NCBI RefSeq assembly: GCF_020166345.1
Contig: NZ_JAIUJS010000008.1
Coordinates: 1 to 64,000 of the forward strand
DNA length: 64,000 bases
Direction: 5' to 3'
From: Winogradskyella vincentii
GTDB lineage: Bacteria; Bacteroidota; Bacteroidia; Flavobacteriales; Flavobacteriaceae
Made by a program: the position numbers and the translations under genes. A model generated the notes under the pieces. The model was not told the origin of the DNA. It worked only from the letters and a program-made list of their open reading frames with translations, and made no database searches. This document shows, piece after piece, positions 39,504 through 55,091 of the stretch. Each line of letters opens with the position of its first letter. Position 1 is the stretch's first letter.

Positions 39504-40181
39504 TTAACTAATAATTCTGCCATCTCCCATAGTTATAATTCTGTCTGTTTGTTTTGCGAAATCTTCATCGTGCGTAACAATAAGTAAGGAGAGGTTTTGT
39601 TCGTCACTTAATTGTCTAAAAATATTAAAGACATTATCAGCATTGTGGCTATCAAGGTTGCCCGTAGGCTCATCGCCCATTATAATTGATGGATTGTTAA
39701 TGAGTGCTCTTGCGATTGCAACACGTTGTTTTTCTCCACCAGAAATCTGAGATGCACGTTTAGTTGCGAGGTGCTCAATATTTAGTATTTTCAATTTGTC
39801 ATGACCGTCTGAGATTATTTCTTCAATGGATTTCTCTCCCAATTTTTTTGCAGGTAGTATTACGTTTTCTAGAACTGAGAATTCAGGCAATAAATAATGA
39901 AACTGAAACACAAATCCGACGTACTTATTTCTAATATATGACAGCTCATTGCGTTCAGCCCCAGTTATAAGCTGATTGTTGAGTAATAATTCACCATCAT
40001 AATCTGTATCCATTGTAGACAATATGTATAATAGCGTAGATTTTCCACAACCAGACTTACCCATAATTGAAGTGAATTCGCCTTTGTTTATCTTAAAATT
40101 AATGTCTTTAAGGACATGGAATAAAACAGGTTTTCTAAAATATTTGTTGATATGTCTTGCTTCTAAAATTGGTTCCATCAT
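39504..40181 (-). CDS. ABC transporter ATP-binding protein (LolD/MacB type)
   Basis: This 225-residue ATPase has Walker A GKSGCGKST, signature ISGGEKQR, Walker B IIMGDEPTG and the H-loop in VTHDED. It is the type that powers MacB/LolCDE-like mechanotransmission systems. Its start overlaps the permease stop by 4 bp. It is the last gene of a four-gene operon with a WG-repeat protein, a lipid-anchored adaptor and an FtsX-type permease, whose promoter carries a TGA-N6-TCA site. Confidence 0.93.
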   Translation of the reverse strand: MMEPILEARHINKYFRKPVLFHVLKDINFKINKGEFTSIMGKSGCGKSTLLYILSTMDTDYDGELLLNNQLITGAERNELSYIRNKYVGFVFQFHYLLPEFSVLENVILPAKKLGEKSIEEIISDGHDKLKILNIEHLATKRASQISGGEKQRVAIARALINNPSIIMGDEPTGNLDSHNADNVFNIFRQLSDEQNLSLLIVTHDEDFAKQTDRIITMGDGRIIS

Positions 40182-41440: not shown

Positions 41441-42519
41441 TATTCTGGTTTGTAAATGATTGTGTTTTCTGAAATGCCTGATTTTATTTCTGCAAATTCC
41501 ATACTCTGCAATCCAAGTTCCACAGTTTTTAAACCATCTTCTGTTGAGACTTTGTCGTTGTCAATCAAATAAGATTTTGGTATGGTTAAAACATTATCAT
41601 GTTTGGCAATTATTATGTTAGCTTCACCAGAAAGTCCAGGGTAAAGCCTTTCAGGGACTTCAGTAAATATTGCCTCAACCAAAAAGGTTTGATTGCGAAC
41701 ATCCTTCTTAGGGTAAATTTTTGTAATTGATGCATCAAAAACGGTGTTATTATAAGCATCTAAGGTGACGAGTACTTTTTGCCCTAGGGTTATACTAATT
41801 ATGTCAACTTCGTCTATAAGCATCTCAATGATAAAATTATTTCTGCTACCAATGGATGCAAGAGGTTCCTGTGTATTTACAATTTCTCCAGGTTCTTTGT
41901 ATAATGCGTATAATTTACCATCAATCTTACTTTTAATAGTGAAATCTTTGGTGTTAATAAGAGAAGTTTCATAGTTGTTTTCGGCCTGTTTTAACAACAC
42001 CTTTAATTCATTTTCTGTTCTCTTAAATTTATCTTTTAAAAGTTTTAATGAATTTTTAGATAGTTCATAATTTAATTTCTTGGTATCATACTGTGCTTTA
42101 GATCCTATATTTTGTTTCCATAAATTAGATTGTCTAAAATAATTAATGGAGTCGTCCTTAAACTTCAATTTGGCAGCTTCAATTTCATTTCTGATGTCAT
42201 TTAATATAGTTGCTTCACCTTTATAGTTTTGATAAGCCAAATCTGCCGCAAGCCTATTGTTTTGCGCGTTAAGTTTGGGGGAATTATTTATAATTTGGAG
42301 TAATGGTTGATTTTTAATTACAATGTCACCTTCTTCAACTAAGTTTTCTTGCAAAATTCCAGAAACTATTGAATGTACCTGGTATAAGCTGTCTGGTTGA
42401 ACTGTAACCGAAGCATATACGGATTCTGTAATTGAGTTTTTTGTAGCTGTAGTGTGTTCCTTATTATTTGAACAATCAAAGAATAGGATTAAAAAGAGAA
42501 CTAAATAATATAATCTCAT
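41440..42519 (-). CDS. Periplasmic adaptor (membrane fusion) lipoprotein
   Basis: This 359-residue HlyD/MacA-like adaptor has a lipoprotein signal (LFFDC, cysteine at residue 16), a barrel-sandwich hybrid split by a long coiled-coil hairpin (about 100-190) and a beta-barrel region. It links the inner-membrane permease to an outer-membrane exit. No TolC-like gene is adjacent, so the exit duct must be encoded elsewhere. It shares one base with the permease gene and lies 5 bp after the WG-repeat gene. Confidence 0.88.
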   Translation of the reverse strand: MRLYYLVLFLILFFDCSNNKEHTTATKNSITESVYASVTVQPDSLYQVHSIVSGILQENLVEEGDIVIKNQPLLQIINNSPKLNAQNNRLAADLAYQNYKGEATILNDIRNEIEAAKLKFKDDSINYFRQSNLWKQNIGSKAQYDTKKLNYELSKNSLKLLKDKFKRTENELKVLLKQAENNYETSLINTKDFTIKSKIDGKLYALYKEPGEIVNTQEPLASIGSRNNFIIEMLIDEVDIISITLGQKVLVTLDAYNNTVFDASITKIYPKKDVRNQTFLVEAIFTEVPERLYPGLSGEANIIIAKHDNVLTIPKSYLIDNDKVSTEDGLKTVELGLQSMEFAEIKSGISENTIIYKPE

Positions 42520-42524
42520 TAAAG

Positions 42525-43139
42525 TTATTGTTTATACTTTTTTATGGTCCAAGTATTATCCATGTTCTGAGTAGCAATTAAGTTGTCAGATATGAATTTT
42601 GATTTAATTCTAGGAGGTTTGCCTAAGAAGTTTTTTTCTAAGGTAACATGAGTTGGTTTTTTATTGAAATAATAAACAATTTCACCATTGATATCAATAG
42701 CAACTTCCATATAATCATATTCAATCATCTGTTTATCTAGAACATCATTTTTACCCAATACATTTTTGTAGAGCTTAATAACAGTGGCCTTACCATTTTT
42801 AAATTCAGTCGCATTTAAAAATTGTGGTTTTAAAATAGCATTACCCTTTTTATCAATATACCCGAAATAGGAAATACCTTCTTTCTCAGATGAGATTAAA
42901 CATCGATCTGAATTAAAAACCGGGTACTTGTTTCCATTAATAGTAGAAACAACAACATCATTTCTAAAATCAACAAGTAGTTCACCTTCTTGGTTAATAA
43001 ATGCCCATTTTTCACCTTTTTTAATAGCCATCACACCATCATGTATAGGTGAAATGAAATCTAATCCGCTTAAGGATTGTGCAAATACTGTTAACGGAAT
43101 AATCAATAGTAAAACGGATAAACTCAGTGCTTTTTTCAT
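42525..43139 (-). CDS. WG-repeat secreted protein
   Basis: This 204-residue protein has a signal peptide (about 1-20, ending VFAQ) and at least two WG-type beta repeats: KKGEKWAFINQEGELLV and FGYIDKKGNAILKPQF. WG repeats are found in many secreted Bacteroidota proteins; no activity is known. It is the first gene of the exporter operon, and its start lies about 20 bp after the initiation point predicted for the Crp/Fnr-type promoter at 43165-43207. Confidence 0.75.
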   Translation of the reverse strand: MKKALSLSVLLLIIPLTVFAQSLSGLDFISPIHDGVMAIKKGEKWAFINQEGELLVDFRNDVVVSTINGNKYPVFNSDRCLISSEKEGISYFGYIDKKGNAILKPQFLNATEFKNGKATVIKLYKNVLGKNDVLDKQMIEYDYMEVAIDINGEIVYYFNKKPTHVTLEKNFLGKPPRIKSKFISDNLIATQNMDNTWTIKKYKQ

Positions 43140-43164: not shown

Positions 43165-43207
43165 TAAATGTAAAATACGATGTCGTATTAAACAATGACT
43201 AAAATCA
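43165..43207 (-). promoter_or_regulatory. TGA-N6-TCA activator promoter of the exporter operon
   Basis: Palindrome TGACTAAAATCA (43196-43207), centre 43201.5. On the minus strand a -7 element TACATTTA occupies 43172-43165, ending 36.5 bp from the centre, the same spacing as in the other sites of this cluster. The transcript would start near 43160 and serve 43139 to 39504. Confidence 0.75.
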
Positions 43208-43224
43208 CTCTTTATGGGTAATCC

Positions 43225-43524
43225 TTATTTTGTGTTTTTTATAACTGAAACAATATCAGATTTTTGTAATACACCAGATTGACGCCAGACTTGTTTTCCA
43301 TTTTTAAATAAGAGCATTGTTGGGACACCTCTAACCTGATAAGTACTTGCGAGAGCTTGATTTTTATCCACATCTATTTTCACAATTTTAATATTGTCAC
43401 CCAATTCATCCTTCACCTCTTTTAGTATTGGAGCTAACATTTTACAAGGACCGCACCAATCAGCATAGAAATCTACCAATACAGGTACTTGTGAATTAAT
43501 TATTTTATTGAAACTAGATTTCAT
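43225..43524 (-). CDS. Thioredoxin
   Basis: This 99-residue single-domain cytosolic thioredoxin has the redox motif WCGPC, cis-proline in GVPTM and normal length. It reduces protein disulfides. It follows the TerB-like gene with a 2-bp gap, so the two are one operon transcribed away from the LOV kinase gene. It is slightly shorter than housekeeping TrxA and may be a stress paralogue. Confidence 0.93.
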   Translation of the reverse strand: MKSSFNKIINSQVPVLVDFYADWCGPCKMLAPILKEVKDELGDNIKIVKIDVDKNQALASTYQVRGVPTMLLFKNGKQVWRQSGVLQKSDIVSVIKNTK

Positions 43525-43526
43525 GA

Positions 43527-43895
43527 TTATATCTTTTTAAATTCTAAATCCAATTTTGCGACATAGGTCAGTTCAGCTTTGTTGATTTTTGAAAATGCGT
43601 AAGCAATATCGTTTGCTGTTTTTAAAATCTTTGACCTGATATTTTTTTCAAACAAATCTGGGTTGTTATTTAAATATCCTACAAAGGATTTAAAACAAAT
43701 GTCTGCTGATTTATTTTCACTTTGCAAATCGTTGAACTGCTTTTTAATGACTTCTAAATTTTTGTCTCCAACATGAAACCAATCACGTTCTAAACAACGT
43801 GATAACTCAGTATATTCCTCAAATGTAAGGTTGCCATCTGCCTTTGCAATTGCGTAAAATAAGGAGCCAATATTTTTGTAAAATTCTGATTTCAT
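43527..43895 (-). CDS. TerB-like small cytosolic protein
   Basis: This 122-residue helical protein opens LFYAIAKADGNLTFEEY, the acidic loop pattern found in TerB-like (tellurite resistance TerB superfamily) proteins. It is otherwise unrecognised and has no signal peptide. It is operonic with thioredoxin and divergent from the LOV kinase gene, sharing its control region, so it likely belongs to the same stress response. Confidence 0.6.
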   Translation of the reverse strand: MKSEFYKNIGSLFYAIAKADGNLTFEEYTELSRCLERDWFHVGDKNLEVIKKQFNDLQSENKSADICFKSFVGYLNNNPDLFEKNIRSKILKTANDIAYAFSKINKAELTYVAKLDLEFKKI

Positions 43896-43966
43896 ATGGT
43901 CTAATAAATTTAATAAAAAGCTAACTATTTACAGTTGAAGTTAATACAAATTTGAAAGGTTGAATG

Positions 43967-44009
43967 TGATAATTGTCATGATTTAACTAGGTCTTAATTC
44001 ATACATTTA
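43967..44009 (+). promoter_or_regulatory. TGA-N6-TCA activator promoter of the LOV kinase operon, possibly bidirectional
   Basis: Palindrome TGATAATTGTCA (43967-43978) and -7 element TACATTTA (44002-44009), 36.5 bp from centre to element end. Initiation is expected near 44014, about 23 bp before the kinase ATG. On the other strand at the mirror distance (43943-43936) the sequence is TAACTTCA, a weaker -7 match that could serve the TerB-like/thioredoxin genes. The site would make the system autoregulated. Confidence 0.75.
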
Positions 44010-44036
44010 TTAATAAGGCTTAATACATTTTGTTGT

Positions 44037-45920
44037 ATGCTAAGACAAGACCAGGAAATATTCAACATTCTTTTAGAAACCGTTTCTGAAGCGGTGGTGA
44101 TTGTTAACCAAGATCAGAAAATCGTTGAGGTTAATAGATCCGCAGAGGTAATTTTCGGTTATGATAACGAAGAAATTAAAGGAAAGCCATTAAATGTATT
44201 AATGCCATCTAATTATCATGATTCCCATAAGGTTCATTTTAAAAATTTTATTGAACAGATGGGCAATAAAAAGATGGCAAAATCCATGGACGTTTTTGGG
44301 CTCAATAAGCTTGGTGACATAATTCCAATTGAAGTACAACTAAATCCTTTTAAAATTTATGATAAGACCTATGTAATGGCCTTAATTAAGGATGTTACTA
44401 AACAGAAGGAAACAGAGTTAGACTATATGCTAAGAAGCAAGGCTTTGGAGTCAGCAAGCAATGGAATAATAATTACTGATGCGTTAAGACCAGATAACCC
44501 TATAATATATTGTAACAAAGCTTTTATAAAACTTACAGGTTATTCCAATAAAGAAGTGGTCCATAAGAATTGTAGATTTTTACAAGGTGAAGACCGAGAA
44601 CAAAAAGAACTTGATAAACTAAGAAGAGCCATTAAAAATGGGAAAAGTTGCCTGGTAACTCTTCGAAATTATAGAAAAGATGGGAGTCTATTCTGGAATG
44701 ATCTTTATATCACACCAATAACAAACAATGACGGGATAATTACCAACTATATCGGAATTCAAAATGATGTTACTGAACGTGTAAAATCAGAGCAAGAAAG
44801 AAGTCATTTCGCAACAATATTCAATGAAAGTTTAAATGAGATATATGTATTTGATGCTAAAACATTATTGTTTTTATCAGCTAATACAGGCGCCTTAAAA
44901 AATTTAGGCTATTCAGAGGATGAATTGAAAAAAATGACACCTTTCGATTTAAAGAATGAAGTAGATGAAGAAAGTTACCGAAAAGCATATTTTGATCCAT
45001 TAACAACTAAAGCAACAGAGAAAGTTGAATATGAAACCATACATGTAAGAAAAGACGGTAGTATATACCCTGTTAATGTACATTTACAGCTGTCCTATCT
45101 AAGCGGTAAACCTGTTTTAGTTGCCATTGTTCTTGATATTACGGAACAAAAGAATTACCTGCAAAAACTTGAGAATACTGTTAAAGAAAGAACAGAGCAG
45201 TTAAGAATAGCATTGAGCAAGGAAAAAGAGCTTAATGAACTTAAAACTAAATTTTTATCTCTTGTGTCACATGAATTTAAAACACCGCTAAGCGGTATTT
45301 CTACTTCAGTGATGTTGCTAGAAAAGTATCAGAAAGAAACTGAGCAAAAAAAACGAGAAAAGCACTTAAATACTATTAAGGAAAAAGTGCAGTATTTAAA
45401 TGCAATTTTAAATGATTTTCTATCTATTGAGAGACTAGAATCAGGCACTGTTAATTATAAAATAAGTGACTTTAATTTAAGCAAGGTTATAAACGAGGTG
45501 GTTTATAATGCCAATATGCTTTTAAAAGAAGGACAGCATATAAAATACCCAATTAACATTGATCATATGACCATGCGTCAAGATGAAAGGATATTAGAAC
45601 TGATTTTATCCAATGTTGTGCTTAATGCCATTAAATACTCAGCCGAAAATACATGTATTGATATTACAATTGAGCAAAACAAAAACAATACAAAAATTAG
45701 GGTTAAAGATGAAGGCGTTGGTATTCCAAAAGAAGATTTGGAGAATGTATTCACACGCTATTTTAGAGCTGAAAATGTTGTAAATATTAGAGGAACAGGT
45801 ATTGGTCTCAACATTGCTAAAACACATGCCGAAAACTTAGGAGGTGAAATTACTTTACAAAGTGAAGAAAATAAAGGAACAACAGTAACGATTAATATAC
45901 CATCTAGATATGATAGCTAA
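44037..45920 (+). CDS. Soluble PAS-LOV-PAS sensor histidine kinase
   Basis: This 627-residue kinase has no signal or membrane segment, so it is cytosolic. PAS1 (about 5-122) has FGYDNEEIKGKPLNVLMP, then His64 at the position of the FixL haem-ligand histidine. The second domain (about 132-250) is a LOV domain: NCRFLQG with the photoactive Cys179, and the flavin-contact residues Asn211 and Asn221 in the NYRKDGSLFWN motif and Gln242. A third PAS (about 258-372), a coiled coil, the H-box SLVSHEFKTPLSG with His412 and an HATPase (DEGVGIP, GTGIGLNIA) follow. It overlaps the response regulator gene by 11 bp. Blue-light sensing is strongly indicated; oxygen or redox input is possible. Confidence 0.9.
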   Translation: MLRQDQEIFNILLETVSEAVVIVNQDQKIVEVNRSAEVIFGYDNEEIKGKPLNVLMPSNYHDSHKVHFKNFIEQMGNKKMAKSMDVFGLNKLGDIIPIEVQLNPFKIYDKTYVMALIKDVTKQKETELDYMLRSKALESASNGIIITDALRPDNPIIYCNKAFIKLTGYSNKEVVHKNCRFLQGEDREQKELDKLRRAIKNGKSCLVTLRNYRKDGSLFWNDLYITPITNNDGIITNYIGIQNDVTERVKSEQERSHFATIFNESLNEIYVFDAKTLLFLSANTGALKNLGYSEDELKKMTPFDLKNEVDEESYRKAYFDPLTTKATEKVEYETIHVRKDGSIYPVNVHLQLSYLSGKPVLVAIVLDITEQKNYLQKLENTVKERTEQLRIALSKEKELNELKTKFLSLVSHEFKTPLSGISTSVMLLEKYQKETEQKKREKHLNTIKEKVQYLNAILNDFLSIERLESGTVNYKISDFNLSKVINEVVYNANMLLKEGQHIKYPINIDHMTMRQDERILELILSNVVLNAIKYSAENTCIDITIEQNKNNTKIRVKDEGVGIPKEDLENVFTRYFRAENVVNIRGTGIGLNIAKTHAENLGGEITLQSEENKGTTVTINIPSRYDS

Positions 45921-46962
45921 ACTATTACTTATAGAAGATGATATAGTATTAAGAGATAATACTGCAGAATTATTGGAGTTATCTGATTACAATGTGATTA
46001 AGGCCTCTAATGGTAAAGAAGGGCTGAAACTTGCAATGACTAATCCTCCTGATCTTATAATATGTGATATTATGATGCCAGAAATGGATGGTTATGAAGT
46101 TTTAGAAAAATTATCCAAAAACAAAAAATTAAAGTTCACACCGTTTATTTTTCTATCAGCCAAGACAGAACATCAAGATGTTAGAAAAGGTATGAATATG
46201 GGTGCAGACGATTATATAACAAAACCATTTACTGAAGATGAACTTTTAAGTGCAATTAAAAGTAGACTTGCCAAAGCTACAATATTAGAACAAAGACGAG
46301 GTTTAAATCAATATGTCGATGAAGATGAAGAGGAATTACGATCATTAAATGATCTTAAGAATTTCTTTGATGATTATGGTGAAGAATTCAAATACGATAA
46401 GAATGAAATCATTTATAACGAAGGTGATCATTCAAACTACATTTATTTAATAACAAAAGGTGCGGTTAAATGCCATAAGTTAGATGACCAAGGAAAAGAA
46501 TTAACAATAGCACTTTACAAAGAGGACGATTTATTTGGTTACACATCCTTTACACACAATTTACCGCACAAGGAGACAGCAACGGCAATAAAAGAAACGC
46601 AATTGATGGGTATATCCATCCTTCAGTTATCTAGTATTTTAGATAGTAACCATAGAGTTGCAATTGCTCTTATAGATCTGCTTACAGATGATTTGTGCAA
46701 TACAAAAGAGCAACTATTGCAAATGGCTTATAGTTCTGTAAATAAAAAAACAGCCAGTACAATTGTGCAGTTTGCAGAACATATAAATCGCAAACCTGAA
46801 GACCCAATAAAAATTTCCAGAAGTGATTTGGCAAGTGTAGCTGGTGTAGCAACAGAAACCTTTATAAGAACACTTACAAATTTTAAAAATGACGGAATTA
46901 TAAAATCAGAAGGCAGAAATATTGTTGTGTTAGATTTAGAACGATTAAAGGAAATAGAATAG
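45910..46962 (+). CDS. Response regulator with Crp/Fnr-type output
   Basis: This 350-residue protein has a receiver domain (about 4-120; phosphoacceptor Asp53 in ICDIMMP, Lys105 in YITKPF), a cNMP-binding-fold domain (about 140-255) and a Crp-type winged HTH (about 275-345). In the recognition helix Glu316 and Arg320 occupy the positions that read the TGA half-site in Crp and Fnr. It is therefore a phosphorylation-controlled Crp/Fnr relative, and I infer that it activates the TGA-N6-TCA promoters around it. No Fe-S cysteine cluster like that of Fnr is present at the N-terminus. It overlaps the kinase gene by 11 bp. Confidence 0.92.
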   Translation: MIAKLLLIEDDIVLRDNTAELLELSDYNVIKASNGKEGLKLAMTNPPDLIICDIMMPEMDGYEVLEKLSKNKKLKFTPFIFLSAKTEHQDVRKGMNMGADDYITKPFTEDELLSAIKSRLAKATILEQRRGLNQYVDEDEEELRSLNDLKNFFDDYGEEFKYDKNEIIYNEGDHSNYIYLITKGAVKCHKLDDQGKELTIALYKEDDLFGYTSFTHNLPHKETATAIKETQLMGISILQLSSILDSNHRVAIALIDLLTDDLCNTKEQLLQMAYSSVNKKTASTIVQFAEHINRKPEDPIKISRSDLASVAGVATETFIRTLTNFKNDGIIKSEGRNIVVLDLERLKEIE

Positions 46963-46975
46963 AAACGCAGTTTAA

Positions 46976-47018
46976 TGACTGTCGTCATTTTAGAGCTACT
47001 AAAAAGAAATTACATTAG
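46976..47018 (+). promoter_or_regulatory. TGA-N6-TCA activator promoter of the first usp operon
   Basis: Palindrome TGACTGTCGTCA (46976-46987) and -7 element TACATTAG (47011-47018), 36.5 bp from centre to element end. The expected leader before the ATG at 47040 is about 17 bp. Confidence 0.75.
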
Positions 47019-47039
47019 TTCTCTTAAATCAATATAATT

Positions 47040-47888
47040 ATGAAGAGTGTACTTCTGCCCACTGATTTTTCTGAAAATTCTTGGAACGCTATTGAGTATG
47101 CACTTGAATTTTTAAAAAGGGAACCGTGCGTATTTTATTTACTTCATGTAAACACCATGAGTAACGCTATTTTAAACGATCCAACTTATATAAGTACTGA
47201 AGATGTCATTGAAGAAGTTTACGTTAAACCGTCCAAGGTGAAGTTGCATAAGCTGTTAAAACGTATTTCGAAAATTTCAGATAAAGATTATCATAGGTTT
47301 TATTCCATTGTAGATTATGGGTTCTTTATTGATTCCATAAGAAGACAAATTGAAGAAAAGAATATAGATTTAATAGTCATGGGCACAAAAGGAGCTTCAG
47401 GACTTAAAAAAATTGTGATTGGCAGTAATGCCGGCGATGTAGTTGTTAAAGTTAAATGTACAACACTTGTAGTGCCTGAAAATGCAGTTTATGATGGTAT
47501 ATCTGAGGTAGCTTTCCCTACTGATTTTTCATCTCACAACAATTTTGAAACCTTAAAGCCTTTGGTTGATCTTGTTGAGGAAAGAGATTCTAAACTATCT
47601 GTACTGCATGTAAATGGATCCAATCAAAGCCTTAATGAAGAACAAGAAAACGGTAAAGAATTTATTAAAGATTTATTTGGTGAATATGAGCATAAGTTTT
47701 TCTTCCTTTCAAACAAAAAGTTAGAGGATGCTGTACAGTGCTTTACAGAAAGTAGAGAGGTTGATATGATTGCAATGGTTGCAAAGAATCTTAATTATTT
47801 TCAACAAATATTATTTCATTCAAGAGTAGAGAATATTACATATCATACAAATATTCCTTTCTTAGTATTACACGAAACAACTAATTAA
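47040..47888 (+). CDS. Universal stress protein (tandem UspA domains), copy 1
   Basis: This 282-residue protein has two Usp domains. The first opens SVLLPTDFSENSWNAIEYAL and carries the ATP-binding pattern G-2x-G-9x-GS (GTKGASGLKKIVIGSN); the second domain (about 155-282) is degenerate and lacks it. Tandem Usps are stress-induced and often nucleotide-binding regulators. It has its own regulon-type promoter, and a small membrane protein gene follows 6 bp later. Confidence 0.92.
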   Translation: MKSVLLPTDFSENSWNAIEYALEFLKREPCVFYLLHVNTMSNAILNDPTYISTEDVIEEVYVKPSKVKLHKLLKRISKISDKDYHRFYSIVDYGFFIDSIRRQIEEKNIDLIVMGTKGASGLKKIVIGSNAGDVVVKVKCTTLVVPENAVYDGISEVAFPTDFSSHNNFETLKPLVDLVEERDSKLSVLHVNGSNQSLNEEQENGKEFIKDLFGEYEHKFFFLSNKKLEDAVQCFTESREVDMIAMVAKNLNYFQQILFHSRVENITYHTNIPFLVLHETTN

Positions 47889-47894
47889 ACTATT

Positions 47895-48281
47895 ATGGAT
47901 GTATCAGTAACTTTTGCAAAATTTTGGGGTTGGTATCTTATTATTTTCTTTTTAATATTAAGCTTAAATCCAAAACGTATCAAACAGATTTTTGAGGATC
48001 TTAAAGACCAAAAGTTTCTCATTTTGTTTTCATTCTTAGCAATAATTGTAGGGTTGATCAATATCATTTTTCATAATATTTGGGAGGCTAATTTTAAAAT
48101 TATCATAACCTTAATCGGTTGGTTTTCGCTAATAATTGGCTTAGGCTTATTTATTTTCCCTGTTAGGACTGTTAGTTGGCTCCAGGTAACCAATGTAAAA
48201 TTTGTACAGGTTATTTATACGCTCTTATTTTTAGTTGGTTTGTTCTTATTAAATGAAGTATATAATCTAATTCCTTTTTAA
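47895..48281 (+). CDS. Four-helix membrane protein, hypothetical
   Basis: This 128-residue integral membrane protein has four hydrophobic segments (about 8-24, 43-62, 68-90 and 102-122). I do not recognise a family. It follows usp copy 1 by 6 bp and is probably co-transcribed, so it should share the light/redox-type regulation inferred for the cluster. Confidence 0.65.
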   Translation: MDVSVTFAKFWGWYLIIFFLILSLNPKRIKQIFEDLKDQKFLILFSFLAIIVGLINIIFHNIWEANFKIIITLIGWFSLIIGLGLFIFPVRTVSWLQVTNVKFVQVIYTLLFLVGLFLLNEVYNLIPF

Positions 48282-48284
48282 AAT

Positions 48285-48327
48285 TGACGATTGTCATTTT
48301 TAGTTAGTTCATAAAGCATTATGTTTA
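48285..48327 (+). promoter_or_regulatory. TGA-N6-TCA activator promoter of candidate sRNA 1
   Basis: Palindrome TGACGATTGTCA (48285-48296) and -7 element TATGTTTA (48320-48327), with the same 36.5-bp spacing. There is no protein start downstream before a terminator. Confidence 0.68.
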
Positions 48328-48331
48328 TTTA

Positions 48332-48415
48332 ATATTAAGGTTTGGGAGTTCCTTAATGTTATTTTGCTATTAATCATGAAGAGAACCAGATTTGCTAAAA
48401 TCTGGTTCTCTTTGT
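48332..48415 (+). ncRNA. Candidate regulated small RNA 1
   Basis: Predicted from the promoter at 48285-48327 to the hairpin terminator at 48379-48415, about 84 nt. The only reading frames are a few codons long. No similarity to a known RNA family was recognised. Confidence 0.45.
48379..48415 (+). terminator. Terminator of candidate sRNA 1
   Basis: A 15-bp perfect stem (48379-48393 with 48398-48412), loop GCTA, followed by a short T-rich run. It could also end the usp copy 1 operon transcript. Confidence 0.8.
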
Positions 48416-48440
48416 TAAGATAATTCAACATTTCTAAAAC

Positions 48441-48483
48441 TGATTAAAATCATTTTAGAATTTAGCATTTTATTCTACTTTGA
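48441..48483 (+). promoter_or_regulatory. TGA-N6-TCA activator promoter of candidate sRNA 2
   Basis: Palindrome TGATTAAAATCA (48441-48452) and a weaker -7 element TACTTTGA (48476-48483) at the standard spacing. The 22 bp around this site (48437-48458) are identical to the site before hsp20 (53225-53246). Confidence 0.62.
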
Positions 48484-48487
48484 GAGT

Positions 48488-48664
48488 TGTTAAAAGGGGG
48501 CTTTTAATAACATAATTAAGGGGCTGTGTGAGTTTATGATAAAGCTCAAAGTACTTTCAGTTTTCTTAAGATAAAAGATATCTTTAAACTGCTACGAAAG
48601 CAATATCATAAAATTATAATGTTCGGTGAAACAGGGAGCGTAAGCTCCCTGTTTTGGTCTTTTT
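48488..48664 (+). ncRNA. Candidate regulated small RNA 2
   Basis: About 177 nt from the predicted start to a strong terminator. Near its 5' end is a 7-bp hairpin with a GGGG loop (TTAAAAG-GGGG-CTTTTAA), another G-rich stretch follows, and two very short frames (12 and 15 codons) have no convincing ribosome site. It is more likely structural or regulatory RNA than a coding transcript. Confidence 0.45.
48630..48664 (+). terminator. Terminator of candidate sRNA 2
   Basis: A 10-bp perfect stem (AACAGGGAGC with GCTCCCTGTT), GTAA loop and a T-rich tail ending in five T residues. Confidence 0.88.
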
Positions 48665-48689
48665 AAGTATCTTATAGTAATTATCTAGA

Positions 48690-48732
48690 TGACATATATC
48701 ATTGTAATAAAGGTGATTAAGATATAGTTTTA
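48690..48732 (+). promoter_or_regulatory. TGA-N6-TCA activator promoter of usp copies 2 and 3
   Basis: Palindrome TGACATATATCA (48690-48701) and -7 element TAGTTTTA (48725-48732), 36.5 bp from centre to element end. The leader before ATG 48757 is about 20 bp. Confidence 0.75.
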
Positions 48733-48756
48733 TGGTTCAATTTAATTGATACAATT

Positions 48757-49608
48757 ATGAAAAATGTGCTTATTCCAACTGATTTTTCAAAAAACGCAAT
48801 GAATGCAATTCGATTTGCATTAGAGTTTTTTAAGTATGATAACTGCGAATTCTATTTTTTGCATACATATGAAGACGAAGTTTACGAAAAGCACAATATT
48901 GCCGAAGAAGTTTCCTTTGATAAGATTAAGGAGGATGCAAAAATCAAATCTGAAGAGAATTTAAATAGCTTGTTTAAAGAAGTAACTTCACTTGCGCCTC
49001 ATAAAAGATTTAAACATCACTTAATATCTGCTTACAATTCTATTTTAGATGAGGTTGATAAAATTGTAATTGACAAGAACATAGATTTAATTGTAATGGG
49101 CACAAAAGGAGAAGGCTCAAATCATGCCTATGCTTTTGGCAGTAACACATTACAAGTTTTAAAATATGTTGCTTGTCCAGTTTTAGTAATCCCAGAATTT
49201 TGCAAATATGAACAACCAAAGAAAGTACTTTTTCCAACTAATTTCTTAATTCCTTATAGGAGAAGAGAGCTGAAGTTGTTAAATACTATGCTTAAGCCTT
49301 TTAGGTCTATGGTTGATGTATTGTATATAGCTAAATATAGTAATCTCTCCAGGCGACAAATAGATAATAGAGAGTTCCTTGTAGAGGAATTGGACGGTTT
49401 AGAATTAAAATTTGAAACTGTAGATAAGAAGGATGTCTCCAAAGCAATTATACATCATATTAAGACTTATGAAATTGACTTATTAGTAATGGTGAATACT
49501 AGACATTCCTATTTAGAGGATATGCTCTATAGATCTAAGGTTGATGATATTTCATTACACACTGATATTCCATTTTTAGCACTTCAAAATGTAAGAAGGA
49601 CCATTTAA
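48757..49608 (+). CDS. Universal stress protein (tandem UspA domains), copy 2
   Basis: This 283-residue paralogue of the neighbouring Usps opens NVLIPTDFSKNAMNAIRFAL. The first domain keeps the ATP pattern G-2x-G-9x-GS (GTKGEGSNHAYAFGSN); the second is degenerate. usp copy 3 follows after 11 bp, so the two are one transcript from the promoter at 48690-48732. Confidence 0.92.
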   Translation: MKNVLIPTDFSKNAMNAIRFALEFFKYDNCEFYFLHTYEDEVYEKHNIAEEVSFDKIKEDAKIKSEENLNSLFKEVTSLAPHKRFKHHLISAYNSILDEVDKIVIDKNIDLIVMGTKGEGSNHAYAFGSNTLQVLKYVACPVLVIPEFCKYEQPKKVLFPTNFLIPYRRRELKLLNTMLKPFRSMVDVLYIAKYSNLSRRQIDNREFLVEELDGLELKFETVDKKDVSKAIIHHIKTYEIDLLVMVNTRHSYLEDMLYRSKVDDISLHTDIPFLALQNVRRTI

Positions 49609-49619
49609 AACTGATTAAA

Positions 49620-50447
49620 ATGAAAAAAATACTTTTGCCAACAGATTTCTCAGATAATTCTTGGAGCGCTATTGTATATGCACTTAAACTTTTCCAAGAA
49701 GAGTATTGTACGTTTTACGTTTTAAACTCTATTGCCTTGAAGGCATCTACAATGTCTAATTTTTCAAATACTCTTTTAAAGAAAATGAAGGACAATGCCC
49801 TTATTGAACTACTTGAAATAAGAGATCAATTGATTTCCTCTGATGCCAATGCAAATCATGAGTTTCATACGGTATTGAGCATGCATGATTTAATTGATGC
49901 AATTGATGCGGAAGTTAAACAGAATAACATTGATTTAATTGTTATGGGAACCAAAGGTGCTACTGGAGCAAAGGAAATATTTATTGGTAGCAATACGGTT
50001 AGAGTCATTAAAAAAATACAGAATTGTCCAATATTATTGGTTCCAGATGAGCATGATTTTGTTTCGCCGAGACAAATTGCTTTTCCGACAGATTTTAAAC
50101 ATAAATATACAGTTGAGCAATTAGCTCCATTAATTGATATGGCAGAACTGTATAATTCTAAAATAAGGATATTACACATTAATGAAGAGGAAAAATTAAG
50201 TAATAAACAAGAACTTAATTATGAGAATTTAAAAGAGAAACTTAGTGATTATAGATCGTCATTTCATTGGATGCCAGACTACAGTACAAAAGAAGTTGAG
50301 ATTAATGAGTTTATATCAGAATTAGAGATTGACCTTTTAGCCATGGTAAATAACAAGCACAGTTGGCTAGAAAAAATAACACATGAACCAGTTATTAAAA
50401 AGATTGGATTTCAACCATTAATTCCATTTTTGGTGATTCCGGCCTAA
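49620..50447 (+). CDS. Universal stress protein (tandem UspA domains), copy 3
   Basis: This 275-residue protein opens KILLPTDFSDNSWSAIVYAL, closest to copy 1. It has an intact first-domain ATP motif (GTKGATGAKEIFIGSN) and a degenerate second domain. It is co-transcribed with copy 2. Three tandem-Usp genes within 3.5 kb point to local duplication under shared control. Confidence 0.92.
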   Translation: MKKILLPTDFSDNSWSAIVYALKLFQEEYCTFYVLNSIALKASTMSNFSNTLLKKMKDNALIELLEIRDQLISSDANANHEFHTVLSMHDLIDAIDAEVKQNNIDLIVMGTKGATGAKEIFIGSNTVRVIKKIQNCPILLVPDEHDFVSPRQIAFPTDFKHKYTVEQLAPLIDMAELYNSKIRILHINEEEKLSNKQELNYENLKEKLSDYRSSFHWMPDYSTKEVEINEFISELEIDLLAMVNNKHSWLEKITHEPVIKKIGFQPLIPFLVIPA

Positions 50448-50449
50448 AG

Positions 50450-50492
50450 TGATTGATATCATTGTTAGAGGTACTATTACAACCTAAATTTA
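50450..50492 (+). promoter_or_regulatory. TGA-N6-TCA activator promoter of the 50525 gene
   Basis: Palindrome TGATTGATATCA (50450-50461) and -7 element TAAATTTA (50485-50492), a very clean match at the standard 36.5-bp spacing. The leader before ATG 50525 is about 28 bp. Confidence 0.78.
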
Positions 50493-50524
50493 GATTGTAA
50501 CAATTTATAATATTAAATGCAGAA

Positions 50525-50926
50525 ATGAAAAATAAAGGAATTTGGATTGATAAGGAAAAGGCGCATATTGTAACAGTTCTAGAAAAAGACACAAAGATGG
50601 TAACAATATTGGCTGAGGATAATGTTGAACAATCATTTGAAGTTGAACGGCCAGGTGGTGCACAAGAAATAATAAAGGATCGTAAAGTTCTGGAGCGAGA
50701 AAAACTAAGAATAAATAGTTTTATAAAATCATTAGTTCCAAAATTAAAGGACACAAAAAATATTCTTGTATTAGGTCCGTCAATGATGTGCCAAAAGTTT
50801 GCCAAAGTATTGGGTAACAATTATCCAATTATAGGCGCCAAAATAAAGGAAGTAAGAAAGGCTGATAAGATGACAGAAAATCAATTAAAAGCCTTGGTAA
50901 AAGATTACTTTTCGCCATTAGGTTAA
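50525..50926 (+). CDS. Small protein, possibly release-factor-like (baeRF/host-attachment type)
   Basis: This 133-residue cytosolic protein opens GIWIDKEKAHIVTV; its later segment ILVLGPSMMCQKFAKVLGNN resembles the central RNase H-like domain of bacterial relatives of archaeal/eukaryotic release factor 1. This is a pattern impression, not a firm family match. Related proteins include ribosome hibernation factors, which would fit a dormancy regulon. It has its own strong regulon-type promoter, and a large hairpin separates it from the nuclease gene. Confidence 0.55.
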   Translation: MKNKGIWIDKEKAHIVTVLEKDTKMVTILAEDNVEQSFEVERPGGAQEIIKDRKVLEREKLRINSFIKSLVPKLKDTKNILVLGPSMMCQKFAKVLGNNYPIIGAKIKEVRKADKMTENQLKALVKDYFSPLG

Positions 50927-50950
50927 GCGGCGATTTGGTTAGTTTGGGGA

Positions 50951-50980
50951 GTTGCCAGGGCAATACGTTGCCCTGGCAAC
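50951..50980 (+). terminator. Strong hairpin between the small protein and nuclease genes
   Basis: A 13-bp perfect G/C-rich stem (50951-50963 with 50968-50980) with loop TACG. No long T run follows, so it may be a terminator, an attenuator or an mRNA-stabilising end. The next gene starts 10 bp later. Confidence 0.6.
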
Positions 50981-50990
50981 ATAATTCTTA

Positions 50991-51836
50991 ATGGTTATGA
51001 AAAACGACAATTTTGAAGTAATAAAATCTAGCGGTAAACGTGTAAAGTTTTCTTTAAGCAAATTAAGATCCTCTTTAAAAAGAAGTGGAGCCAGCAAAGA
51101 AACAATAGACGCAATAATTGATAAGGTTAGAGATGAGCTATATCAAGGTATTTCAACCAAAGAGATTTATAATAGAGCTTTTGCATTGCTGAAGAAGAAA
51201 AAAAGTTACCTGGCTTCAAAATACAAATTAAAAAAGGCAATTTATGAGCTTGGACCAACAGGATTTCCTTTTGAAAGATTCATTCAGGAAATACTTCGTT
51301 ACTCAGGATATGACACCTCAGTAGGCGAGGTAGTAGAAGGGAAATGTGTCTCGCACGAAATTGATGTTATTGCAAACATAGATAATGAAACTATTATCAT
51401 TGAGTGTAAGTTTCATGGTGAGCAAGGCTTAAACTGTAATGTTAAAGTACCGTTATATATCAACTCTAGATATGAGGACATTAAAGCGAGTTGGAAGGCA
51501 AATGGTAACAGTACGCAACTAAAAAATTGTTGGGTGGTTACGAATACGAGGTTTTCAGAGGACGCGGTACAATATGGTCGCTGTTCTGGTTTGTATTTGT
51601 TGAGTTGGGATTATCCTAATAATGAAAGTTTAAGAGATAGAATTGATAGACTTGGTCTATATCCAATTACAGTTTCTACATTGCTGACAAAACGAGAAAA
51701 ACAGTTTTTATTGAGTCGAAATATTGTTTTATGCAGACAACTTTTAGGAGATGTGTTTTATCTAGATCATTTAGGTATTTCTGAAGTCAGAAAAGAAAAA
51801 ATTCTATTAGAGATTGAAGCCTTATGTACAACTTGA
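50991..51836 (+). CDS. ATP-cone/restriction-endonuclease-fold fusion
   Basis: This 281-residue protein has an ATP-cone domain (about 8-95; VIKSSGKRVKFSLSKL), the nucleotide-sensing module of ribonucleotide reductases and NrdR. It is joined to an Mrr-like PD-(D/E)xK nuclease domain (about 95-205) with Asp125 in SHEIDVIAN and Glu138-x-Lys140 in IIIECKFH. The C-terminal 60 residues are helical. The nuclease core looks intact. No methyltransferase or restriction partner is nearby, so classic restriction is unlikely; nucleotide-gated nucleic acid cleavage under stress is an inference. An ATG at 50997 is an alternative start. Confidence 0.82.
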   Translation: MVMKNDNFEVIKSSGKRVKFSLSKLRSSLKRSGASKETIDAIIDKVRDELYQGISTKEIYNRAFALLKKKKSYLASKYKLKKAIYELGPTGFPFERFIQEILRYSGYDTSVGEVVEGKCVSHEIDVIANIDNETIIIECKFHGEQGLNCNVKVPLYINSRYEDIKASWKANGNSTQLKNCWVVTNTRFSEDAVQYGRCSGLYLLSWDYPNNESLRDRIDRLGLYPITVSTLLTKREKQFLLSRNIVLCRQLLGDVFYLDHLGISEVRKEKILLEIEALCTT

Positions 51837-51846
51837 TAATCTACCT

Positions 51847-53220
51847 ATGAAACGAATAGTTAAGGTCAATTTTTTAGGAGGTGCAGGCACAGTTACAGGT
51901 TCTAAGTTTTTACTAGAAACATCTGAATGCAATTTAATGATAGATTGTGGGATGTTTCAGGGTCTAAAGGAACTCAGAGAATTGAATTGGGTTGATTTAC
52001 CAGTAGATGTTCCCAGAATTGACTTAGTCCTTTTAACGCATGGACATCTAGATCATGTAGGTTATATGCCTCGACTTATAAAGCAAGGGTTTAAGGGTGA
52101 AATAATTGGAACATCACCAACTTTGGCAATAGCAGAAATAATTTTAAGAGATAGCGCAAAGATTCATGAGGAAGAAGCAAAAAAAGCCAACAAAGAAAAG
52201 TACACCAAACATAATCCTGCTCTTCCATTTTACACTATAAATGAGGCAGAAAAAACTATTAAGTACTTTAAATCTGTTGAATTAGATAGTTGGGTTCAGT
52301 TGTCTGAAAATATATCAGTAAGATTTCAATATAATGGACATATTATAGGTTCAACATTTATTGAATTAGAAATTAATGGTAAACGCCTAGTGTTCTCAGG
52401 TGATGTTGGAAGAAAGAATGATTATTTATTGAGTAATCCCAAAAAACCACAATGGGCAGACTACTTATTTGTAGAAAGCACTTATGGAGATAAACTCCAT
52501 CCGGAGCAAGATGTAGAAATTGTTCTCGCTGATCTTGTTAAAAAAACACTTCAAAATAGAGGTAACTTGATAATACCAAGTTTTGCTGTGGAAAGGCTTC
52601 AAACCTTAATGTACATACTCTGGAAACTGTATAAGCAAAATAAAATTCCAGATATTCCAATATTTATTGATAGTCCAATGGGAAAAAACGTGTTGGATGT
52701 TTTTAAGTATTATCCAAATTGGCATAAGTTACCAGAATCTGAGTATTATGCCATGTGCAATCACATAAATATTGTTAGTTCCTACAAGGAAACTTGGGAG
52801 ACAATAGACGATAGAAGGGCAAAGGTCGTTATTGCCGGTAGTGGTATGGTAACCGGAGGAAGGGTGCTTACATACTTACAACAGTATATTGATGAGCCCT
52901 CAACAACAGTTTTATTGGTTGGTTACCAAGCCGAAGGAACCCGTGGACGCCAGCTGATTGAAGGTGCACACGAAATAAAATTCTTTGGTAAGTATTATCC
53001 AATTAAAGCAAAAGTTGAACACATAGAGAGCCTATCTGCCCATGCCGATCAAGGAGAACTTATGGACTGGTTAGATGAAATAAAAAACATACCAGAACAG
53101 GTTTACCTTATACACGGTGAGTCTAATGCGCTTAATGCTTTTAGAGTTAAGCTTGAAACTATTAATAAATGGCGTGTAAAAATTCCAAAATTAACAGATA
53201 TAGACCAGCTAATTATTTAA
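51847..53220 (+). CDS. MBL-fold/beta-CASP RNA-processing-type metallo-hydrolase
   Basis: With the ATG at 51847 the protein is 457 residues; the open frame begins at 51814 inside the previous gene, but the conserved protein starts at KRIVKVNFLGGAGTVTGSKF. It has the zinc motif THGHLDHVGY, further ligands in RFQYNGHIIGST and FSGDVGR, a beta-CASP domain and the C-terminal HIESLSAHADQGEL and HGES motifs of CPSF73-like exonucleases. Family members cut or trim RNA. It is 10 bp after the nuclease fusion, so the two nucleic-acid enzymes are probably co-expressed. Confidence 0.9.
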   Translation: MKRIVKVNFLGGAGTVTGSKFLLETSECNLMIDCGMFQGLKELRELNWVDLPVDVPRIDLVLLTHGHLDHVGYMPRLIKQGFKGEIIGTSPTLAIAEIILRDSAKIHEEEAKKANKEKYTKHNPALPFYTINEAEKTIKYFKSVELDSWVQLSENISVRFQYNGHIIGSTFIELEINGKRLVFSGDVGRKNDYLLSNPKKPQWADYLFVESTYGDKLHPEQDVEIVLADLVKKTLQNRGNLIIPSFAVERLQTLMYILWKLYKQNKIPDIPIFIDSPMGKNVLDVFKYYPNWHKLPESEYYAMCNHINIVSSYKETWETIDDRRAKVVIAGSGMVTGGRVLTYLQQYIDEPSTTVLLVGYQAEGTRGRQLIEGAHEIKFFGKYYPIKAKVEHIESLSAHADQGELMDWLDEIKNIPEQVYLIHGESNALNAFRVKLETINKWRVKIPKLTDIDQLII

Positions 53221-53228
53221 AAGTAAAC

Positions 53229-53271
53229 TGATTAAAATCATTTTAGGAATCAGGTTTGATTTTTAAATTTC
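53229..53271 (+). promoter_or_regulatory. TGA-N6-TCA activator promoter of hsp20
   Basis: Palindrome TGATTAAAATCA (53229-53240) and -7 element TAAATTTC (53264-53271) at the standard spacing. It lies inside the longer open frame that starts at 53256, which argues for the hsp20 start at 53307. Confidence 0.72.
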
Positions 53272-53306
53272 AGTTAGAATCATGTTTAACAAATAAAATA
53301 AAAGCT

Positions 53307-53759
53307 ATGTCATTAATTAAATTTAACAATCGAAACCGATTATTCCCATGGAATAATACACAGCTAAAAGATTTTTTTAGCTCTGATGATTTCTTTTTTA
53401 ACGATAACTTTTTTGAAGAAGATTCTTTAATGCCGGCGATGAATGTAAAAGAGTTGGAAGGTGAGTTTGAAGTTGAGTTTGCAGCACCTGGATTTAAAAA
53501 GTCTGATTTTGAAGTTACATTAGAAGATAACATCCTTAATGTATCTGCGAAAAAGGAAATAGAAAAAGAAGAAGAAAAAGAAGACTACATGCGCAGGGAA
53601 TTTAGCTATAATGCATTTAAGCGCGCATTAAGACTGCCTGAAACTGTTGATAATATGGCAGATATCAAGGCAACTTATAACGAAGGTATATTAAAATTAA
53701 ATCTTCTTAAAAAAGAACCATCAAAAGAAACACCTAAAAAAGTAATAGAGGTTATTTAA
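53307..53759 (+). CDS. Hsp20/alpha-crystallin family small heat shock protein
   Basis: The ATG at 53307 (MSLIKFNNRN) gives 150 residues, the usual size. The frame is open from 53256, but the predicted promoter and initiation point lie downstream of that. The alpha-crystallin domain (about 45-135) shows FEVEFAAPGFKKSDFEVTLE and the closing YNEGILKLNLLKK; a short C-terminal tail (PKKVIEVI) provides the IxI/V-type oligomerisation motif. It holds unfolding proteins without ATP. A terminator follows directly. Confidence 0.94.
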   Translation: MSLIKFNNRNRLFPWNNTQLKDFFSSDDFFFNDNFFEEDSLMPAMNVKELEGEFEVEFAAPGFKKSDFEVTLEDNILNVSAKKEIEKEEEKEDYMRREFSYNAFKRALRLPETVDNMADIKATYNEGILKLNLLKKEPSKETPKKVIEVI

Positions 53760-53773
53760 AAATCAAGGATTTG

Positions 53774-53811
53774 AGCAGAGTGCATTTTTAGGTGTTGCAC
53801 TCTGCTTTTTT
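53774..53811 (+). terminator. Intrinsic terminator after hsp20
   Basis: An 11-bp perfect stem (53774-53784 with 53796-53806), 11-nt loop and T run. It ends only 14 bp before the next start codon. Confidence 0.85.
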
Positions 53812-53824
53812 ATACCATTATACC

Positions 53825-54268
53825 ATGAAAACAATACACACAAAAGCAAAACATACAGAGTGGCTTAGTGCTGAGGATATGCACGATGCTTCTAAAATAT
53901 GGATTTCAGAATTGAGTTTTTTTAAGGAGGAACAACTTTTCTTAGAAGACCTAATTAAATCGTATACTCTAAATTTAATTGACAACAATCATTTTGAAGA
54001 AAGTAAAAAAGTAATTGATAAACTCTCCATAGTGGTTAAGAATACACAAGTTTTATTGAATGCTGTTAATTCTCACGAAAATGGATTATCAATTATGGTT
54101 GATGGAATTGATCAGTTAGAAGAAGAGGCCACATATAGAAAAGAACACAGAAATTTAATTGAGCTGATAGGTGAATTTAAAAAGCGTTACCAAAAGATTA
54201 AGATGAGGCTTTTCACATTAATAAAACTTGTAATGAAGGAAAGCAAACAAAAAAGACTTTTGAAATAA
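53825..54268 (+). CDS. Helical cytosolic protein, hypothetical
   Basis: The ATG at 53825 (MKTIHTKAKHTEWLSAEDMH) gives 147 residues. The frame is open to 53792, but those codons lie within the hsp20 terminator hairpin. The protein is almost all alpha-helix (about 15-145), with charged amphipathic heptads suggesting a coiled-coil or four-helix bundle. I do not recognise a family. It sits between hsp20 and the VIT1-type gene and would be expressed by read-through of the hsp20 terminator. Confidence 0.6.
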   Translation: MKTIHTKAKHTEWLSAEDMHDASKIWISELSFFKEEQLFLEDLIKSYTLNLIDNNHFEESKKVIDKLSIVVKNTQVLLNAVNSHENGLSIMVDGIDQLEEEATYRKEHRNLIELIGEFKKRYQKIKMRLFTLIKLVMKESKQKRLLK

Positions 54269-54299
54269 TGCCATTTCTGTTTTTTATTAGTTCGGCCAT

Positions 54300-55031
54300 T
54301 TAAGAACCTACTATGATTGCCTCTAAAATGTCACCTACATAATAGGCAACGGTTGCGGCTATTGCACCAAGTATAAGCGTCTCAAACACACCTTTAATTT
54401 TACTGGTGTTGGTAATGTGTGTTTTTAAAAATCCTATTAAAATAAAAGCCATAGAAGTTAAAATGCTTGTCCAAAGAAATAGATGACCAGGGAATTCCCA
54501 AATTAAATCCCATACATATACTGTTAAGGGAATAATACCGACCAAAACAAATGCCAAATAAGTGGATAATCCAATTTTAAATGGTGTTTTACTTAATTGG
54601 ATCATGTCTATATTACTTTTTTTGAAATTTTTCATCCAGGTCTTCTTCTCTGTTACGATTTCCTCAACCATGCTTTCAATTGATTCTCCAGCAAAGCCAT
54701 TTTTAAGAAGAATTTTTTTGATTTTGTTTTTACCGTATTTGAGTTGATTCTGAGATGTTCTGCTATTTGTGTTTTCAATATTATTTTGGCTGTCCTTTAC
54801 TGATTTGGCAGATAAATAAGCGCCTACGGACATCGCGAACCCATCTGCGAGTAAATTTGCAAAACCAAGTATGATTATTACTGAATTACTCAGACCCGCA
54901 CCAACTGCACCAGAAACAACCGCAAATGTTGTAACGGCACCATCAATACCTCCATAAACAATCTCTCCAAGATATATTTGAAATGGATAAAGCCAATTAG
55001 TTGGTTCTATTATTGATTTTTGTTTTTTCAC
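54300..55031 (-). CDS. VIT1/CCC1 family metal transporter
   Basis: The GTG at 55031 gives 243 residues. The frame is open to a TTG at 55061, but the predicted transcription start lies near 55044, downstream of it. The protein has the VIT1 signature [20 protein letters not shown], five membrane helices and a cytosolic helical loop (about 100-150) between helices 2 and 3. Family members move Fe2+ or Mn2+ out of the cytosol or into compartments, limiting metal-driven oxidative damage. It is convergent with the preceding small protein. Confidence 0.86.
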
Positions 55032-55048
55032 ACCATATAAGATAAGAT

Positions 55049-55091
55049 TAAAATTAGACAACAGACATATGATAACCTATGATAATAATCA
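55049..55091 (-). promoter_or_regulatory. TGA-N6-TCA activator promoter of the VIT1-type gene
   Basis: Palindrome TGATAATAATCA (55080-55091). On the minus strand the -7 element TAATTTTA occupies 55056-55049, 36.5 bp from the centre. The leader to the GTG at 55031 would be about 13 bp. Confidence 0.75.

Follow-up and report, generated by a model that had tools for sequence, protein, structure and literature searches.

Gene block and promoter layout

The window analysed here is a 64,000-nucleotide stretch of the Winogradskyella vincentii genome (contig NZ_JAIUJS010000008.1, positions 1 to 64,000; the whole genome amounts to 3.29 Mb in 64 contigs), and it carries a block of genes that includes a sensor histidine kinase (44037..45920, plus strand) and a response regulator (RR; 45910..46962, plus strand). 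The promoters of this block are, in all likelihood, class II Crp/Fnr-type promoters of a stress regulon of the Flavobacteriaceae, with the RR as activator. Domains were assigned to the window proteins by Pfam and NCBIfam profile searches. The RR, the proposed activator, consists of a receiver (REC, PF00072), a cNMP-binding domain (PF00027) and HTH_Crp_2 (PF13545), all above the Pfam cut-off. On the minus strand lie a thioredoxin (43225-43524) and a TerB-like protein (43527-43895), which together span 43225..43895, and an exporter operon made of a WG-repeat protein, HlyD, FtsX/MacB and an ABC ATPase (39504..43139). On the plus strand follow Usp1 (47040..47888); a 128-amino-acid protein (47895..48281), which has no Pfam or NCBIfam match and has 15 homologous open reading frames (ORFs) in 40 related loci; two candidate small RNAs (sRNAs); Usp2 and Usp3 (48757-49608 and 49620-50447, together 48757..50447); a 133-amino-acid protein, an ATP-cone+Mrr_cat protein and a beta-CASP/RMMBL metallo-hydrolase (50525..53220); and Hsp20 (53307..53759; Pfam query 53256-53759), whose ATG at 53307 lies 3' of the predicted transcription start. 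A VIT1-family transporter (54300..55031, minus strand; Pfam query 54300-55061) closes the block, and its start is probably near 55031 rather than 55061, given the promoter that precedes it.

An original prediction, made from the letters of this DNA, described nine promoters of identical architecture, each a TGA-N6-TCA palindrome with a TAnnTTTR 8-mer, the -7 element, ending 36.5 bp from the palindrome centre. All nine palindromes are where they had been placed. An exact TAnnTTTR lies at 36.5 bp for six centres (43201.5, 43972.5, 48290.5, 48695.5, 50455.5 and 55085.5), and the other three have one mismatch in the element (46981.5, TACATTAG; 48446.5, TACTTTGA; 53234.5, TAAATTTC). The palindrome by itself is weak evidence, since 25.6 would be expected in the window and 38 are present. 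The pairing is another matter: 12 of the 76 palindrome-strands have a -7 match with up to one mismatch at 36.5 bp, the next best offset having 7. When the pattern TGAY-N4-RTCA-N23-TAnnTTTR was searched with up to one mismatch, 11 pairs were found in the window, compared to a mean of 0.62 and a maximum of 3 in 100 shuffled sequences, none of which reached 11. The nine palindrome/-7 promoters are real. Two of the 11 pairs were absent from the original list: the minus-strand side of 43972.5 and a pair at 36923-36965, also on the minus strand and with one mismatch.

The operators fall, loosely, into two types, A and B, a split drawn by eye from the window genome's own list of sites. The class B pattern is TGAY, then a non-A, then RTCATT, with an exact -7 element; the labels of the window operators are calls by eye that tolerate -7 mismatches, and on this footing class B fits six of the nine. 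Operator 1 (TGATTTTAGTCA, class B, 43196..43207, minus strand; -7 TACATTTA, 43165-43172) serves the WG-repeat/HlyD/FtsX/ABC genes. Operator 2 (TGATAATTGTCA, class A type by eye, 43967..43978) is bidirectional, with TACATTTA at 44002-44009 on the plus strand toward the LOV kinase and RR, and TAACTTCA at 43936-43943 on the minus strand, with one mismatch, toward TerB and thioredoxin. Among palindromes with an exact -7 element, such a second one (up to one mismatch) on the opposite side was seen for 4 of 34 in stretches of the own genome and for 11 of 161 in 40 RR loci. The next five operators are all on the plus strand: operator 3 (TGACTGTCGTCA, class B, 46976..46987; -7 TACATTAG, 47011-47018) serves Usp1, operators 4 (TGACGATTGTCA, class B, 48285..48296; -7 TATGTTTA, 48320-48327) and 5 (TGATTAAAATCA, class B, 48441..48452; -7 TACTTTGA, 48476-48483) serve candidate sRNA1 and sRNA2, operator 6 (TGACATATATCA, 48690..48701; -7 TAGTTTTA, 48725-48732) serves Usp2-Usp3, and operator 7 (TGATTGATATCA, class B, 50450..50461; -7 TAAATTTA, 50485-50492) serves the 133-amino-acid protein and then the ATP-cone/Mrr and beta-CASP metallo-hydrolase genes. 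Hsp20 is served by operator 8 (TGATTAAAATCA, class B, 53229..53240, plus strand; -7 TAAATTTC, 53264-53271), and VIT1 by operator 9 (TGATTATTATCA, 55080..55091, minus strand; -7 TAATTTTA, 55049-55056).

In E. coli, a CRP/FNR operator at -41.5 is the geometry of a class II activator. A study on Flavobacterium psychrophilum maps the sigma-A -7 box, TAnnTTTG, to positions -12 to -5 (PMC9723704); since the -7 element ends 36.5 bp from the palindrome centre, the centres fall at -41.5. All nine promoters thus have a twofold-symmetric TGA..TCA operator at -41.5 from their predicted starts. The spacing is just as rigid in relatives, which were represented by two sets of loci, 40 RR loci of the family and 80 named loci, between which species may overlap. 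In the first set, 164 of the 632 palindrome-strands have an exact -7 element at 36.5 bp, compared to 3 at 35.5, 4 at 37.5 and at most 7 at any other offset; in the second, 235 of 766 do, compared to 3, 9 and at most 10, respectively. The mean count at other offsets is 2-2.6 in the two sets. This fixed spacing bears out the class II architecture that had been proposed.

The RR reaches further than this layout can be followed. A phylum-wide search of 198 genomes matched 33, one of them (G264) only in part and so not counted; of the 32 with a full-length RR, 12 belong to the family (the own genome included) and 20 to other families of the class. In these 20 loci, an exact -7 element occurs 7 times at 36.5 bp and 6 times at an unrelated offset, and class B sites 0 times at 36.5 and twice at 37.5 bp. 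The promoter layout is therefore not established outside the family, which counts against the general reading, and no claim is made for it there. In one locus with a more distant RR (L130, G103:C80; 43% identical), several sites have the form TGACYTARGTCATT, which hints at a joint divergence of operator and regulator.

The probable activator

Six Crp-type proteins, with a cyclic-nucleotide-type domain, are encoded in the window genome. Only two have the recognition-helix pattern TExxIR, the window RR and a 225-amino-acid Fnr-type protein, and these are therefore the main candidates. Three others (L043, L044 and L045) do not have the glutamate of this pattern. The Fnr-type protein (C44:206602-207276) adjoins the cbb3 genes, is 29% identical to the RR over the Crp half and starts with CxxC; the RR has a receiver in place of the N-terminal cysteine set. 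Around it (L047, G000:C44:200000-219999), sites of the same layout precede two genes whose translations were read as ccoN and hemN, the latter being followed by a Usp.

The family was sampled through 149 genomes of 148 genera. A full-length RR is present in 74 of them (75 matched the search, and G002, with receiver-only matches, was set aside), and a canonical Fnr, called at an identity of at least 41%, in 98. Class B sites are found in 70 of the 74 RR genomes, the own genome included, compared to 16 of the 75 without RR; leaving out the own genome, 73 RR genomes contain 303 such sites and the 75 others 26 (p 5e-21). The Poisson rate ratio for class B is 12.8 for the RR and 1.5 for Fnr. The reversed pattern, used as a control, gave 12 matches for class B and none for class A in the 149 genomes. 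Furthermore, the sites cluster at the regulator gene: among 40 RR genomes, 46 of 194 class B sites lie near the RR, in 0.54% of the DNA, where 1.05 would be expected, as do 18 of 149 class A sites, where 0.81 would be. A site directly behind the RR stop codon, the place of operator 3 in the window, is present in 70 of 79 named loci, 57 of them with an exact -7 element. Given these rate ratios and this clustering, class B follows the RR gene, and class A may follow either regulator. Co-occurrence, clustering and the site behind the RR stop make the RR, as originally proposed, the probable activator.

Several observations weigh against so simple an assignment. Class A sites also rise with the RR (rate ratio 2.3), and the statistics across the 149 genomes treat these as independent of phylogeny. 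One genome confirmed to have no RR (G055) has 7 class B sites, its contamination being 6%, and class B sites are absent from four RR genomes (G066, G069, G080 and G081). The split between the classes is not sharp, with p 0.039 in the own-genome stretches and p 0.74 within the 40 RR loci, which leaves the class A-like sites without an assignment to either regulator alone; the idea of two clean site classes, one per regulator, was dropped on these figures. The sixth Crp-type protein, paralogue C4 (L046), may bind too: it has TESLSR, which resembles the TExxIR pattern, in a helix whose score falls short of the Pfam cut-off.

Co-regulation, with Fnr bringing in oxygen directly and the RR the kinase signal at the same promoters, possibly in a cascade, deserves serious consideration, at somewhat less than even likelihood. 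The motifs of the two proteins overlap, and the clustering of class A sites at RR loci fits this view. In four loci (L113, L114, L115 and L118), moreover, the conserved site behind the RR stop drives Usp1 and then Fnr, suggesting an RR-to-Fnr cascade in some genera; in the window genome, Fnr is encoded elsewhere. Co-regulation overlaps with the RR as activator and could apply to only part of the sites; the cbb3-linked Fnr probably shares some sites of the regulon. A more radical alternative, in which the promoters belong to the canonical cbb3-linked Fnr, the block is part of the Fnr regulon and the RR has other targets, is improbable. The common recognition helix, the same-layout sites next to fnr, the rise of class A sites with Fnr (rate ratio 2.7) and the fit of site 43972.5 to class A all speak for it, but class B, the type of six of the nine window operators, does not rise with Fnr (p 0.997, unadjusted), with a mean of 0.44 sites in the 55 genomes with Fnr and no RR against 3.26 in the 31 with RR and no canonical Fnr. 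Finally, that the RR represses at these sites is very unlikely, since the -41.5 centre and the single-base rigidity to the -7 box are a class II activator geometry which a repressor would not need, and the stretch where a -33 element would sit is rich in T (81 to 102 of the 157 sites have T at the positions from +7.5 to +11.5), no TTG consensus having been found there in these sites.

The original picture of a compact, self-contained regulon did not survive. Only 6 of the 46 exact matches of the originally described pattern in the window genome lie inside the window, 40 lie outside, and the second regulator with the same recognition-helix residues, Fnr, is encoded elsewhere. With up to one mismatch there are 186 matches compared to 126 for the reversed pattern, so that noise makes up much of this wider list. 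Of the exact matches, 45 could be read in context, and 4 of these were marked as sitting within a longer open frame. Genes behind the sites, named from reading their translations, include ccoN, hemN, pyruvate:ferredoxin oxidoreductase, ferredoxin, AhpC and pyruvate phosphate dikinase. Ten genes behind sites outside the window, picked mostly for class B, were submitted to Pfam, which recognized a citrate-type transporter, a D-2-hydroxyacid dehydrogenase, an MlaE permease, an outer-membrane barrel, an ABC1 kinase (the second gene behind its site), an amine-oxidoreductase-type flavoprotein and a cytochrome c (barely above the cut-off), and found no family for the other three. Elsewhere in the genome (L048-L049, G000:C64:51339-68363), five exact matches fall within 17 kb, two of them being the two sides of one palindrome (65339-65412); this is possibly a second RR-controlled block.

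Conserved targets, candidate small RNAs and the sensor

The window RR is 90% identical to that of W. alexanderae and, among the named loci, is also present in Tenacibaculum, Olleya, Aquimarina, Maribacter, Lutibacter, Gillisia, Salegentibacter and others. The gene order ABC-FtsX-HlyD / WG / thioredoxin-TerB / kinase-RR / Usp1-128-amino-acid protein / gap / Usp2-Usp3 ... ATP-cone-metallo-hydrolase / Hsp20 repeats, wholly or partly, in 12 loci inspected of the 40. Counting sites with up to one -7 mismatch in these 40 loci, sites are common before the ORFs of Usp1 (39/47), Usp2 (25/28), TerB (18/24), Hsp20 (16/16) and WG (7/12). They are rare before those of Usp3 (14/63), the kinase (3/42), the RR (0/41), a 158-amino-acid protein (3/21), the ATP-cone protein (0/20), the metallo-hydrolase (0/20), the 133-amino-acid protein (1/17), ABC (0/17), thioredoxin (2/15), the 128-amino-acid protein (2/15), HlyD (1/13), FtsX (0/12) and Fnr (1/5). 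Many of the genes with low counts are second or later in an operon.

These counts redraw the list of targets. The kinase operon had been named as one, and its conserved autoregulation is rejected, with 3 of 42 kinase ORFs having a -7 element in their direction; at the same palindrome, the TerB/thioredoxin side, which the original prediction had missed, is the one that recurs. The small protein and VIT1, also named as targets, do have sites in the window, but only 1 of 17 homologues of the 133-amino-acid protein has one, and no homologue of VIT1, nor of a 934-amino-acid gene, was found in the 40 loci; these two sites look local rather than conserved. The ATP-cone + Mrr_cat gene adjoins that of the beta-CASP/RMMBL metallo-hydrolase (50991-53220 in the window); each has 20 homologous ORFs in the 40 loci, and they stand side by side in the loci inspected.

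Between the gene of the 128-amino-acid protein and Usp2, two operators are each followed by a terminated, apparently non-coding stretch, which we regard as candidate sRNAs on the basis of sequence and predicted folding. Candidate sRNA1 (48332..48417, plus strand; about 86 nt) is predicted to form a 5' hairpin, a linker with UGCUAUUAAUC, unpaired in the window copy, and a terminator hairpin. Candidate sRNA2 (48488..48660, plus strand; about 173 nt) ends in an ACAGG...CCUGU terminator hairpin. Predicted folding is strong (z -6.3 and -5.7, respectively), largely through the terminators. Counterparts of sRNA1, one search for which took in 49 sources, occur in six Winogradskyella loci, in Psychroserpens (L142, diverged) and in L105; 6 of 9 copies are predicted to fold much of their first 20-40 nt into a 5' hairpin, with sequences that differ. 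Counterparts of sRNA2 in other genera end, not all of them, in the ACAGG...CCUGU hairpin and align poorly outside the terminator. A covariance model of sRNA1 (R1) gave hits at E 0.05 or less in 48 of 60 relatives, and only 6 of the 60 genomes reach 60 bits; most of the weak hits are probably generic terminators, since the structure predicted by R1 covers the terminator alone. Rfam returned a single match on 38000-60000, with E 0.89, far below the gathering score. In a strict scan for a site plus a perfect-stem terminator, limited to loci with at least 150 nt behind Usp1 or the 128-amino-acid protein, candidates appeared in 23 of 85 loci and in none of the other 62. The two non-protein transcripts originally predicted are thus retained as candidates with counterparts in some relatives.

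The kinase has three PAS stretches, of which the second is a LOV domain with the cysteine motif NCRFLQ, followed by HisKA and HATPase_c. A YtvA-family blue-light stretch is detected by NCBIfam at residues 134-257, below the family cut-off, and the curated NCBIfam blue-light cut-offs are missed (NF052306, 138.4 compared to 450 bits; NF052652, 175 compared to 250 bits). Light had been put forward as an input. As a conserved one it is not supported, for the LOV motif is present in only 11 of 40 family kinases next to the RR (searched as NCR[FY][LM]Q) and in 12 of 77 from the named loci (NCR[FYA][LM]Q). Among the 40, 23 are short kinases of 379-427 amino acids. Across these loci it is the sensor that varies; the output side is conserved.

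Comparison with known systems

The scheme that best accounts for these data can be stated as follows. A histidine kinase of the PAS type, which in the window has an additional LOV domain, would phosphorylate the RR, in which a receiver is directly fused to the DNA-binding half of a Crp/Fnr protein; the RR would then bind TGAYNNNNRTCAT centred at -41.5, recruit the phylum's sigma factor to the TAnnTTTR -7 box and turn on the Usps, Hsp20, TerB/thioredoxin, the exporter operon and the two candidate sRNAs. The regulon, probably one of low-oxygen/redox or survival stress, would reach beyond the block and overlap that of the separate cbb3-linked Fnr. Element spacing, conservation and the co-occurrence of sites with the regulator gene are computed quantities, from which we infer binding, activation, phosphorylation, the signal and the function of the RNAs. 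On a broader formulation we are evenly divided: a family-wide survival regulon run by a FixJ-like receiver fused to a FixK-like activator, its kinase sensor swapped freely between lineages (with LOV in some), together with a conserved, trans-acting sRNA1, its unpaired UGCUAUUAAUC linker lying between two hairpins, and a longer sRNA2. In the accessible text of the open-licence papers searched, neither this regulator nor its regulon is described.

This analysis supplies the operator, the promoter layout, the probable regulator and the core target set for a stress regulon of the Flavobacteriaceae, a family abundant in the sea, about half of whose sampled genera have the RR. It opens the questions of what switches flavobacterial Usp/Hsp20 survival genes, whether light plays a part where a LOV domain occurs and which function the small RNAs have.

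Several known systems share parts of this scheme. FixL-FixJ-FixK of rhizobia and Burkholderia likewise consists of a sensor kinase, a response regulator and a Crp/Fnr-type activator. FixJ, which is LuxR-type, and FixK are separate proteins, whereas Pfam finds here one fused protein, and Usps, Hsp20 and candidate sRNAs form the core of the targets here. In B. dolosa, FixLJ controls FixK, according to PMC6127331. The mycobacterial DosR regulon also has several Usps and alpha-crystallin/Hsp20, which agrees with the likeness to Dos-type hypoxia/dormancy regulons noted from the outset. It too is governed by a sensor kinase and a response regulator; DosR is LuxR-type, in contrast to the REC-Crp protein found here, and operator and promoter differ. 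The lxa locus of Burkholderia cenocepacia, with six Usps, a heat-shock protein and a suspected Crp-type oxygen regulator (PMC6127331), resembles the present block in combining Usps, a heat-shock protein and a Crp-type regulator, and differs in that BCAM0049, its suspected regulator, is a stand-alone Crp-type protein and that phylum and gene content are others. The flavobacterial Fnr-cbb3 regulon has, in the window genome, the same class II layout and a near-identical operator; Fnr has no receiver, in contrast to the kinase-fed RR, and the core targets differ. PMC9723704 reports that cbb3 is induced under oxygen limitation in F. psychrophilum, and the word 'Crp' is absent from its main text. 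The scheme is FixL/J/K-like with J and K fused, and its content resembles that of Dos and lxa; it is a variant of known schemes and not a new category.

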